DNA of 64,000 nucleotides from the NCBI GenBank assembly GCA_902706235.1, contig CACSJR010000017.1, positions 1 to 64,000 of the forward strand. The letters are read 5' to 3'. The notes beneath the pieces are model-generated. The model saw only the letters and a program-made list of their open reading frames with translations. It was not told the DNA's origin and did no database searches. This document shows, piece after piece, positions 54,484 through 60,789 of the stretch. The translations under genes were made by a program, and so were the position numbers. Position 1 is the stretch's first letter. Each line of letters starts with the position of its first letter. This stretch comes from Citrobacter sp. 18056 (GTDB taxonomy: Bacteria; Pseudomonadota; Gammaproteobacteria; Enterobacterales; Enterobacteriaceae).

Positions 54484-54660
54484 AAGGTTGCGCCCGTCGT
54501 TGGGGAGTAGCCGATTTCCTTTCCCGGAAATGTACGTGTCAACATACTCGTTGCAAAACGTGGTGCGTACGGTTTATCAGCATGATGGACAGGCGAGACC
54601 ATAGACATATCACTGCTATACGTTGGAATGACGTATGTTTACTGGGGGCAGCGGTATGTC
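54484..54660 (+). ncRNA. yybP-ykoY manganese riboswitch in the mntP leader
   Basis: The leader carries the conserved GGGGAGTAG (54502-54510) and the closing GGACAGGCGAGACCATAG (54587-54604) of the yybP-ykoY aptamer, a manganese sensor. It is followed by a long hairpin in which ACATATCACTGC (54605-54616) pairs with GCAGCGGTATGT (54648-54659), the likely expression platform just before the mntP ribosome site. Manganese binding is known to raise mntP expression in E. coli. Ends are approximate. Confidence 0.88.
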
Positions 54661-54690
54661 ATATGGATATTTCCCCGGTCAGGACAAGCG

Positions 54691-55257
54691 ATGAATCTCT
54701 CAGCCACTATCCTACTCGCCTTTGGTATGTCGATGGACGCCTTTGCCGTCTCGATAAGCAAAGGTGCATCTCTGCACAAACCAAAGTTCTCTGAAGCACT
54801 GCGTACCGGTCTTATTTTTGGCTGCGTTGAAGCTATCACCCCGCTTGTTGGCTGGGGTATGGGCATGCTCGCCAGCCAGTTCGTGCTCGAATGGAACCAC
54901 TGGATTGCCTTCGTACTGTTAGTTTTCCTTGGCGGTCGAATGCTGATTGAAGGTTGGCGTGGGAATGAAGATAGCGAAGAAAAAGCCCCGACTCGCCACG
55001 GTTTCTGGCTGCTGGTGACGACGGCAATTGCCACCAGCCTCGATGCGATGGCTGTGGGTGTAGGTCTTGCCTTCTTACAGGTGAATATCATTTACACCGC
55101 GTTGGCCATTGGCTGTGCAACGCTGGTGATGACGACGATTGGAATGATGGTCGGCCGCTTTATTGGGCCCCTGTTGGGCAAACGCGCCGAGATGCTCGGC
55201 GGTATCGTGCTGATTGGCATTGGCGTCCAGATCCTCTGGAGCCACTTCACGGGTTAA
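54691..55257 (+). CDS. mntP: Manganese exporter MntP
   Basis: A 188-residue membrane protein with six helices in two repeated halves; the metal-binding aspartates lie in [15 protein letters not shown] and [12 protein letters not shown]. It exports Mn2+ when the cell is overloaded. The ATG at 54691 has AGGA 6 bases upstream and gives the E. coli length; longer frames would run into the riboswitch. It overlaps the end of rlmA by 4 bp on the opposite strand. Confidence 0.97.
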
Positions 55258-56048
55258 TCGTTCCGCTGCCAGACCTGAATAAGAAAATCAGTCTGGCAGT
55301 CAAATGTTTCAAGCCCTGCCAGTTCTTCCCACACTTCCGGTTTTGCGCGCCAGGCAAATGGGGTCATTTGCAGCAGCGCCACGGCTTCGCTTCCCGATAA
55401 GGTCATCGGATACGCCAGTTGTTTCTGCTCCACTTTCTCAAAACCCGGTAACGCTTCGCTGTTCGCGTCATGCAAACGAATCTCGTCGTAGATAAGCCCT
55501 TTCAGTTCCATCAGATGTCGTGGTCCTGGCGTCGCGGTGATCACCACGCCACCCGGCTTTACAACTCGTTCCAGCTCCTGTGGATTACACGGGGCGTAAA
55601 TTCGCACGACCGCATCCATGCAGGCATCGCTAAAAGGCAGGCGTTGGCTGGAAGCCACGCAAAACTCCACCTGAGAATAGCGCTTCGCGCCGTAACGCAC
55701 GGCGGTTTTGGATACGTCCAGGCCCCAGGTGTGCTCGGCGAGCGCCGCAAAGGCGTGCGTGTAATAGCCTTCGCCACAGCCAATATCGAGAATGTTTTTC
55801 GGTGAAGAATGTTTGAGAATGTCGCTGATGGCATCGCGCAGCGGCTGATAATGGCCCGCGTCAAGAAAGGCGCGACGTGCCTGCATCATTTCCGCGCTGT
55901 CACCCGGATCGCGCGACCGCTTGTGCTGCACCGGCAACAGATTAATGTACCCTTCTTTCGCCAGGTCGAACTGGTGACGCTGAGGGCAAATGTAGCTGTT
56001 GTTGTGGCGCTCAAGCGGCGCATGACAAAGAGGACAACTCCAGGACAT
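55254..56048 (-). CDS. rlmA: 23S rRNA (guanine745-N1)-methyltransferase RlmA
   Basis: A 264-residue SAM-dependent methyltransferase. The N-terminal zinc site uses CPLCHAPL and CPQRHQF; the SAM motif I is [15 protein letters not shown], and [19 protein letters not shown] follows. It methylates G745 of 23S rRNA. GGAG precedes the ATG. It is five residues shorter than the E. coli protein as I recall it. It is downstream of the PBP3 paralogue on the same strand, 62 bp away. Confidence 0.95.
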
Positions 56049-56110: not shown

Positions 56111-57844
56111 TTACCGCGCGGGAGCGAGTGTGTCGTTGTGATGCGTGACGATTAAGTTCGGTGAGCCAGGAGCCAGTCCGTCTGGCATCACGTTTTCGAG
56201 ACGCAAAACGTCGCCCATGATTTGGCTGAATACCGGCGCGGCAACCGCACCACCGTAGTATTTACCATTCTCAGGATCGTTTATCACCACCACCAGCGCA
56301 TATTTCGGGTTACTGGCCGGGGCGACACCTGCCGTGTAAGCAATATATTTGTCGATATATTTACCATCCGGACCGATTTTTTTCGCCGTCCCGGTTTTCA
56401 CCGCCACGCGATAGTCATTAACTGCGGCCTTGATTCCGCCGCCGCCGGGCAGCGCCACGCTTTCCATCATGTGCTCTACCTGATGCACAATTTCATCAGA
56501 CATGACCCGATGGCCCATCACTGGCGGATCGATACGCGTAATAGACAAGGGACGAGAGATCCCGAAGCCACCGATCGTCGCGTAAACGTGCGCCAACTGA
56601 AGCGGCGTGATCATCAGACCGTAGCCGAAGGAAAATGTCGCCCTGTCGAGCTTTCCCCAGGAACGACGATTCGGCAGAAAACCCTGGCTTTCACCGGTTA
56701 AGCCCAACCCGGTCGGTTGGCCAAAGCCGAAGCCTTTGTAGGTATCAAGCAGGCGTTGAATCGGCATCGCCAGAGAAAGATGCGACACGCCGGTATCACT
56801 CGATTTTTGCAGAATGCCGGTGAGGCTCAGCTCAGGGTAGTAGCCCACGTCACGAATGCGGTGACCATCCAGGGTGTACGGATGGGTATCAACCACGCTG
56901 TCAGGGCGAACAATACCCTGCTGCAATGCGGTCATGATGACCAAAGGTTTAACCGTTGAGCCCGGCTCAAAGGTGTCGCTGATCGCGCGGTTACGGAAAT
57001 CATCCAGCGTGGCTTTTTCACGGTTGTTTGGGTTGAAATCCGGATAGCTTGCCATCGCCAAAATTTCGCCGGTATCAATTCGAATCAACACAGACGCACC
57101 GGATTCAGCTTTATTCCAGCGCACGGCGTTGTCCAGCGCATCTTCAGTGACCGTCTGCAAACGCTCATCAATGCTGAGTTGTAGGTTATGCGCAGGGACC
57201 GCGGCCTGTTCAGTCAGATTTTCAATCACGTTCCCATGGCGGTCTTTTCGCACCAGTCGCAGACCTGGTTTGCCCTGCATTTGCGCGTTAAAGCTTTTTT
57301 CAACGCCTTCAATGCCCTGGTCATCAATGTTGGTGAAGCCGATAAGATTGGCAGCAACGTGACCGGCAGGATAAAAACGGCGTGATTCTTCACGAAGATT
57401 AATGCCTGGTAGATGGAGTTTATCAATCCAGGCTGCCTGCTGCGGATCGACCTGACGCGCAAGATAAAGGAAACGGGAATGCGGATGCTGAGTGATTTTA
57501 GACGTCAGATCAGACAATGAGGTGTGTAAGGCATTAGCCAGCGCCTGCCAGCGCGCGCTGTAACCGACGCCACCTTTCGAGAGCAGCGTTTGTGGATCAA
57601 CCCAGATTGCGCTAACGGGTACGCTCACCGCCAACGGGCGCCCTTCTCTGTCGATGATCATCCCACGAGGAACATCGATGGGTTCTTCACGTAAAGAACG
57701 CATATCTTCTTGTTTTACCAGATTATCTGGCGAAATTATTTGTAGCCAACCTACGCGGGCCAACAGCAGCCCCAGACAACAACAAATACCTAAACACACC
57801 AGGCCAAAACGGACTGGGGTGAAGTGACGGCGATGGTTTTGCAC
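56111..57844 (-). CDS. FtsI/PBP3 paralogue, peptidoglycan D,D-transpeptidase (PBP3SAL-like)
   Basis: A 577-residue class B penicillin-binding protein: membrane anchor at about 12-36, pedestal domain, then a transpeptidase domain with the active serine in STVK (Ser296) and KTGT (483-486). Its numbering runs 11 behind E. coli FtsI throughout. The second motif reads Ser-Ser-Asp (348-350) where FtsI has Ser-Ser-Asn. The location between rlmA and cspC is that of the Salmonella PBP3SAL gene, a second septal enzyme used at acidic pH with low beta-lactam affinity, so this is probably its orthologue rather than the main ftsI of the dcw cluster. The start is GTG after GGGAG. Confidence 0.9.
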
Positions 57845-58046: not shown

Positions 58047-58256
58047 TCAGATAGCAGTTACGTTAACTGCAGCTGGGCCTTTCTGGCCGTCCTGAATTTC
58101 GAACTCAACGTTCTGGCCTTCAGCCAGAGTTTTGAAGCCGTTACCCTGGATTGCAGAGAAATGTACGAATACATCTTTGCTACCGTCTGCAGGAGTAATG
58201 AAGCCAAAACCTTTAGACTCGTTGAACCACTTAACTTGACCTTTAATCTTTGCCAT
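58047..58256 (-). CDS. cspC: Cold shock-like RNA chaperone CspC
   Basis: A 69-residue single cold-shock domain with RNP1 KGFGFI and RNP2 DVFVHF; the sequence agrees with E. coli CspC at every position I can recall. CspC is made at normal temperature, stabilises rpoS and stress mRNAs and melts RNA structure. The ATG at 58256 follows AAGGAA. yobF lies 40 bp upstream on the same transcript. Confidence 0.97.
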
Positions 58257-58296
58257 TTGCAAAATTCCTTAGAGTGTTTTCTTCGCCCGAGGGCAC

Positions 58297-59997: not shown

Positions 59998-60789
59998 TCA
60001 GAATGGATAGTCGTTGTAACCCATCTGCTCAGAAATCTTACGCGCCGCCGTGTGCAGCATGCTGACGTACTCGTGCAGACGCTCCTCAGAGAAACGCAGA
60101 GTCGGGAAGGAAATGCTCAGCCCCGCAATCACCACGCCGAAGCGGTCAAACACCGGCACACCGATGCAACGCAGCCCCTCTTCCTGCTCTTCATTATCTT
60201 CGCCATAACCTTGCTCACGCACCACATCCAGCAGCGGTAACAGCTCTTCAGTATCGGCGATAGTCCGCTCGGTGCTGCGCTTATACTCAACGTGCTCGAG
60301 GATCTGTTTTACTTCCTCACGGTCACGCCACGCCAACAGCACTTTACCAATTGCCGTGCTGTACAGTGGATTGCGACGGCCAATGCGGGAGTACATTCGC
60401 AGGTTATACATTGAGTCAATTTTATGGATGTAGACGATGCTGTCTTCATCCAGCGCGCCCAGGTGAATGGTTTCTTTCGTCAAACGAGAAAGTTCACGCA
60501 TCTGGATATCCGCACTGCGGATGAGATCGACGTTTTGCAGCGAGCGCGCACCCAGCTCAAACAGTTTCAGGGTCAAAGAGTATTTCTCTGATTCGCCTTC
60601 CTGTGCCACGTAGCCCAACGATTTCATGGTCTGTAAAAAGCGATAAACCGTGCTTTTTGACATCATTACGCGCTGTGAAAGCTCAGTTATCCCTATCTCA
60701 CGCTCTTCGCCAAGCGCTTGCAAAATGCCAAAAACCTTCAACACCGAAGAGACAGAATCTGGCTGTTTATCCAAATCTGCAACTGCCAT
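59998..60789 (-). CDS. kdgR: Transcriptional repressor KdgR (IclR family)
   Basis: A 263-residue IclR-type repressor with a winged helix-turn-helix at about 15-75 (ITELSQRVMMSKSTVYRFLQTM) and an effector domain that binds 2-keto-3-deoxygluconate (STAIGKVLLAW, EEGLRCIGVPVFDRFG). It controls hexuronate and pectin catabolism genes. Length is the same as in E. coli. GAGGTG precedes the ATG. It is divergent from yebQ. Confidence 0.96.
   Translation of the reverse strand: MAVADLDKQPDSVSSVLKVFGILQALGEEREIGITELSQRVMMSKSTVYRFLQTMKSLGYVAQEGESEKYSLTLKLFELGARSLQNVDLIRSADIQMRELSRLTKETIHLGALDEDSIVYIHKIDSMYNLRMYSRIGRRNPLYSTAIGKVLLAWRDREEVKQILEHVEYKRSTERTIADTEELLPLLDVVREQGYGEDNEEQEEGLRCIGVPVFDRFGVVIAGLSISFPTLRFSEERLHEYVSMLHTAARKISEQMGYNDYPF

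Follow-up and report, generated by a model that had tools for sequence, protein, structure and literature searches.

Close relatives of the gene studied here are two additional division transpeptidases of enteric bacteria. The gene of PBP3SAL (STM1836) from Salmonella Typhimurium is located between rrmA and cspC, and in E. coli the protein bound Bocillin and supported division at pH 5.8, but not at pH 7.4 (PMC5736910). The loss of Bocillin binding at neutral pH was seen in E. coli membranes from cells grown at the assay pH, and cefuroxime was bound less well by PBP3SAL than by PBP3 (PMC5736910). In K. pneumoniae, an acid role was shown for PBP3PARA (ftsI2), whose catalytic motifs are, in the available text, said only to be retained (PMC13251458). 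In both Salmonella and Klebsiella, PBP3SAL-type enzymes are reported to support division in acid and to change beta-lactam susceptibility; why the antibiotic affinity differs is described as still unknown (PMC5826704). Two papers write the second catalytic motif of PBP3SAL as 'SXN/D' and describe it as intact or conserved (PMC5736910, PMC5826704), by which an Asp in this protein is at least implied in print. In E. coli PBP3, the side-chain nitrogen of Asn361 in this motif forms a hydrogen bond of 3.0 Å to the carboxamide oxygen of a ligand (PMC8301747). Asn361 is credited with positioning the D-Ala-diaminopimelate amide, N361S alters the shape of the poles, and Asp at this position marks class B2 (PBP2), both residues occurring among class B PBPs (PMC4038516).

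In this study, we analyzed a window of 64,000 nucleotides from Citrobacter sp. 18056, in which ftsI2 is located between rlmA and a cspC/cspE-type cold shock gene (Table 1). The order of mntP, rlmA, the cold shock gene and kdgR is that of the annotated Salmonella record L226 (NZ_CP022016.1), where the paralogue bears the label ftsI. Among the PBP3SAL-type loci, rlmA was present in the stretch in 161 of 161 cases and a cspE homologue in 159 of 161, repeats of one gene being included in these counts. Since this is also the locus of PBP3SAL, with which the protein shares the three catalytic motifs, the window gene is the orthologue of Salmonella PBP3SAL and Klebsiella PBP3PARA at the rlmA-cspE locus. 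The initial annotation had likewise assigned it to the PBP3SAL type at the same locus, in agreement with these neighbours and with the trees described below, in which the window protein groups with the PBP3SAL orthologues and apart from FtsI (support of the rlmA-locus branch 96/92 and 95/92 in two trees). PBP3PARA of K. pneumoniae ATCC 13883 (L135, L342) is 83% identical to the window protein and the orthologues of Salmonella enterica (subsp. diarizonae, subsp. arizonae, serovar India) about 79%, all with SSDTG. Acid restriction is reported for PBP3SAL (PMC5736910) and an acid role for PBP3PARA (PMC13251458), and either may extend to the window protein. When the best 80 of 113 relatives were compared, the named records closest to the window protein bore the labels Pluralibacter (L123, 94%) and Enterobacter sp. 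(L124, 93%), which would make the host a Pluralibacter-like enterobacterium. A 99% identical copy occurs in a record titled Chryseobacterium sp. 18061 (L122); this label is surely wrong, and the assembly is probably mislabelled or contaminated. Two Salmonella records with the PBP3SAL gene, L226 and CP074266.1, are filed as plasmids; in NZ_CP022016.1 the gene is surrounded by sequence of chromosomal type that runs from htpX to manX.

Table 1. Features of the ftsI2 locus in the window
Feature	Position	Strand	Basis
mntP neighbour	54628..55257	+	homologue in same order in L226
rlmA (23S rRNA methyltransferase), downstream neighbour	55254..56048	-	homologue in same order in Salmonella record L226
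ftsI2, PBP3SAL/PBP3PARA-type class B PBP, 577 aa, GTG start	56111..57844	-	ORF, NCBIfam NF011685, structure matches
Third catalytic motif K483TG	56390..56398	-	motif positions in translation
Asp350 codon GAT in S348-S-D350 (= E. coli Asn361)	56795..56797	-	sequence, alignments
Second catalytic motif SSD	56795..56803	-	motif positions in translation
First catalytic motif S296TVK	56948..56959	-	motif positions in translation
Ser289 codon (E. coli Thr300 by offset of 11)	56978..56980	-	column comparison of clade and FtsI
cspC/cspE-type cold shock gene, upstream neighbour	58047..58262	-	cspE homologue found in the window's locus (L220); annotated at equivalent place in L226
kdgR, further upstream	59998..60789	-	ORF, same order in L226

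With the NCBIfam profile NF011685 (FtsI), the window protein scored 864.9 bits (cut-off 737), whereas the 271.3 bits with TIGR03423 (MrdA) are below the cut-off of 455 and place it outside class B2 (PBP2/MrdA). All three motifs (SxxK, SXN/D, KTG) are intact. The Asn of SxN that marks canonical FtsI (class B3) is replaced by Asp350, the minus-strand context being CAA AAA TCG AGT GAT ACC GGC GTG TCG (QKSSDTGVS); the initial annotation had read this codon correctly. It had also aligned Asp350 with Asn361 of E. coli FtsI by a constant offset of 11, which was reproduced in two ways: phmmer aligned residues 29-569 to the PBP3 structure 7onw with zero gaps, and a structural comparison (VIA) placed residues 59-558 of a predicted model, whose mean pLDDT was 86.1, on residues 70-569 of E. 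coli PBP3 as numbered in entry 7onn (Z 66.7; 402 residues at an rmsd of 1.3). PBP3 structures were the best matches of this model in Foldseek and VIA-align. Because the structural alignment gives this offset, Asp350 is the equivalent of Asn361. The same genome (G000) contains, at another location, a canonical FtsI with the same fold and three motifs, but with SSN (L001; about 61% identity over 570 aa), and besides one MrdA-type frame (L003, SADTFFY) and four larger PBP frames. The window protein is an FtsI paralogue additional to this canonical FtsI. With PBP2/MrdA it shares S-x-D followed by Thr; the two are only about 25% identical.

A protein-based search for relatives, unbiased at residue 350 as its six seed peptides exclude the motif, revealed Asp in 80/80 loci from named records (the best 80 of 113 relatives), and Asp was also present in all seven genomes of the genus examined. 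In a pooled alignment of 251 distinct rows, Asp occupies this position in 176/176 rows of the paralogue clade and Asn in 75/75 canonical FtsI rows, a split which, judged from these sequences, is far beyond chance. The comparison with PBP3SAL-type orthologues proposed in the initial annotation thus found Asn in none of the close orthologues. The clade rows comprise 123 from the rlmA locus (122 genes), 51 from a dispersed chromosomal branch and 2 from a plasmid branch; the window gene was counted twice (first residue M or V), leaving 175 genes. The FtsI rows come from the family (50) and from other families of the order (25). BLAST matches below 250 bits or spanning fewer than 450 query residues, outgroup matches shorter than 400 residues, MrdA rows below 400 bits and exact duplicate sequences were left out. 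Columns 350 and 289 are the only two in which clade and FtsI have no residue in common; column 289, seven residues ahead of the catalytic serine, contains Ser or Asn in the clade and Thr or Ala in FtsI. In the aligned rows, Asp350 is conserved across the clade, and SSD is a clade-wide signature rather than peculiar to one paralogue. Five further SSD-pattern matches (G066:C13, G060:C2, G441, G458, G314) were discarded as chance, no paralogue above threshold being found there.

For the dispersed branch, 33 of the 51 rows were found by a pattern demanding Asp and are no test of residue 350. In 22 genomes without an SSD-pattern match, all but one of them chosen also for at least four matches in an earlier search, a protein search recovered another 18 intact paralogues, each of which carries Asp (17 SSDIA, one SSDTG). 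The other four genomes contained a broken copy (G109), a remnant (G181) or no dispersed-type match (G160, G276). In G109 (G109:C1:352174-353745), the gene is in pieces, with stops inside one piece.

Trees were calculated with 58 and 47 of 219 distinct rows. Once the motif columns had been taken out, all Asp paralogues of the 58-row tree (LG+G4) formed one clade (100/98), and parsimony required one change. The 47-row tree, calculated under a mixture model with column 289 also removed, lacked L255, the plasmid row and nine outgroup rows that were distant or long; it gave 90/93 for the Asp group, with the FtsI rows not forming one group. A single Asn-to-Asp change behind the whole clade is favoured by these trees; as the dispersed branch is long, two origins of Asp are possible, but less favoured.

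The explanation that we regard as best, and to which we give somewhat less than an even chance, is that Asp350 is a selected clade signature and that acylation depends on its protonation. The gene is the second division transpeptidase FtsI2 of the PBP3SAL/PBP3PARA type, and Asp350, probably fixed near the origin of the clade, provides this division-class PBP with an S-x-D active site of the kind usually seen in the elongation enzyme PBP2. The side chain of Asn361 would act as hydrogen-bond donor to the amide carbonyl in the stem peptide or in a beta-lactam, as is consistent with the bond seen in PBP3 (PMC8301747); the initial annotation was right that the motif contacts beta-lactams (PMC8301747). 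A carboxylate would be unable to donate this bond and a protonated Asp presumably able to, hence acylation would be good below about pH 6 and poor at neutral pH, with weaker binding of some beta-lactams. Donation by protonated Asp only would fit the acid-only Bocillin binding of PBP3SAL; Ser289 and other clade-fixed changes probably contribute. The far-reaching form, in which Asp350 is a built-in proton switch, one base change made a pH-indifferent division transpeptidase acid-restricted with altered beta-lactam binding, and the plasmid copy beside blaLAP has the same active-site type, appears unlikely to us.

The Asp alone is a doubtful sufficient cause of acid dependence. Canonical PBP2 carries SADT in the window genome (L003) and in five further MrdA proteins (L333, L337, L338, L340, L341), and its elongasome works at and responds to neutral pH (PMC10492807). 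The same SADT is present in four PBP2SAL-type rows, two of them from Salmonella and taken as PBP2SAL by inference, and PBP2SAL is reported to be absolutely dependent on acid pH (PMC10492807). Because PBP2 and the acid-only PBP2SAL both carry SADT, acid restriction can, as far as these rows tell, arise without a change at the SxN/D position. The proposal of the initial annotation that Asp350 lies behind an altered pH optimum or low beta-lactam affinity is thus consistent with the Asn361 bond and with acid-only PBP3SAL, whereas its simple version is opposed by these enzymes. Asp350 may be permissive, or important in the PBP3 setting only.

The strongest alternative is that Asp350 was kept for another reason, such as stem-peptide geometry, the fit to FtsW/PBP1b or a PBP2-like active site, and that acid restriction has its source elsewhere in the protein or in the assembly with partners. 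We give it likewise somewhat less than an even chance. Besides the Asp that is normal in PBP2 and the acid-only PBP2SAL, 22 columns separate the PBP3SAL-type rows from the Enterobacteriaceae FtsI rows, and a switch in the association with FtsW/PBP1b is part of the model put forward for Klebsiella (PMC13251458). Against it, the Bocillin binding of PBP3SAL is itself lost at neutral pH, which points to the active site, but the cells had been grown at the assay pH (PMC5736910). A contribution of the proton switch and an acid restriction lying elsewhere are about equally likely.

A historical accident, in which Asp and Asn are interchangeable at position 350 and Asp was merely inherited, is quite improbable, even if the two residues are a single transition apart and class B PBPs contain both at this position (PMC4038516). 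Asn was found in 0/176 clade rows and Asp in 0/75 FtsI rows; yet Asn appears at least once in 22 of the 35 Asp-majority columns of the clade, column 350 being among five with invariant Asp. The swap was probably selected rather than accidental. A sequencing or assembly error in the window genome, for which no support was found, is ruled out for practical purposes by the orthologues, with Asp in all 80 named loci and the seven genus genomes.

In the open-licence literature searched, we found no mutant of residue 350 in a PBP3SAL-type protein, no paper on N132D with beta-lactamase, an SXN motif with SXD or a PBP3 paralog with aspartate, and no statement that the dispersed and plasmid branches belong to the FtsI2 clade; among the matches listed, nothing on point linked PBP3SAL to protonation. 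Nor did its main text, as distinct from the supplementary figures that are said to hold PBP3SAL alignments, state that Asp separates the whole clade from FtsI. One active-site residue separating a whole paralogue clade from FtsI provides a sharp and cheaply testable hypothesis. It is also a one-residue marker to tell FtsI2 from FtsI, both of which can be labelled ftsI in annotation.

The PBP3SAL-type gene was detected in 61/295 sampled genomes of the family. Among the best 80 of 113 relatives, it occurs in named records of Buttiauxella, Silvania, Dryocola and Superficieibacter, among other genera. These four genera are not regarded as pathogens. The absence of PBP3SAL from nonpathogenic bacteria, as stated in the available text of PMC5736910, is doubtful. 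Complete E. coli genomes gave a match in 5,376/5,426 cases, and the best-ranked ones (25 of 5,405 records) were ftsI itself (65.7-65.8% identity), with none above ftsI.

The dispersed gene was present in at least 50/295 sampled family genomes (32 by pattern, 18 by protein), and rlmA was found in the stretch of 0/40 dispersed or plasmid loci. No genome was on both the PBP3SAL-type and the dispersed list, the dispersed gene being sought by pattern alone among the 61 PBP3SAL-type genomes. In seven loci (L307, L309, L310, L314, L315, L317, L318), and in pieces in L316, the dispersed ftsI2 adjoins a second MrdA gene as an mrdA2-ftsI2 pair. Over the parts compared, this second MrdA shares 75-78% identity with the second MrdA of Salmonella (PBP2SAL type); its identity with canonical PBP2 is about 63-65%.

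The plasmid-borne FtsI-like gene (L225:2689-4419, L267:1462-3192, L259) encodes a protein with SSDTG that is 47% identical to the window protein, and in the 58-row tree it forms a long branch nested inside the dispersed FtsI2 branch. Among the plasmid records, 404/424 matched at ≥90% identity, and in 133/424 one place covered 80% of the protein; many copies look truncated from their sequence. The gene immediately precedes blaLAP-2 or blaLAP-1, and in one record (L267) ampH flanks it on the opposite side.
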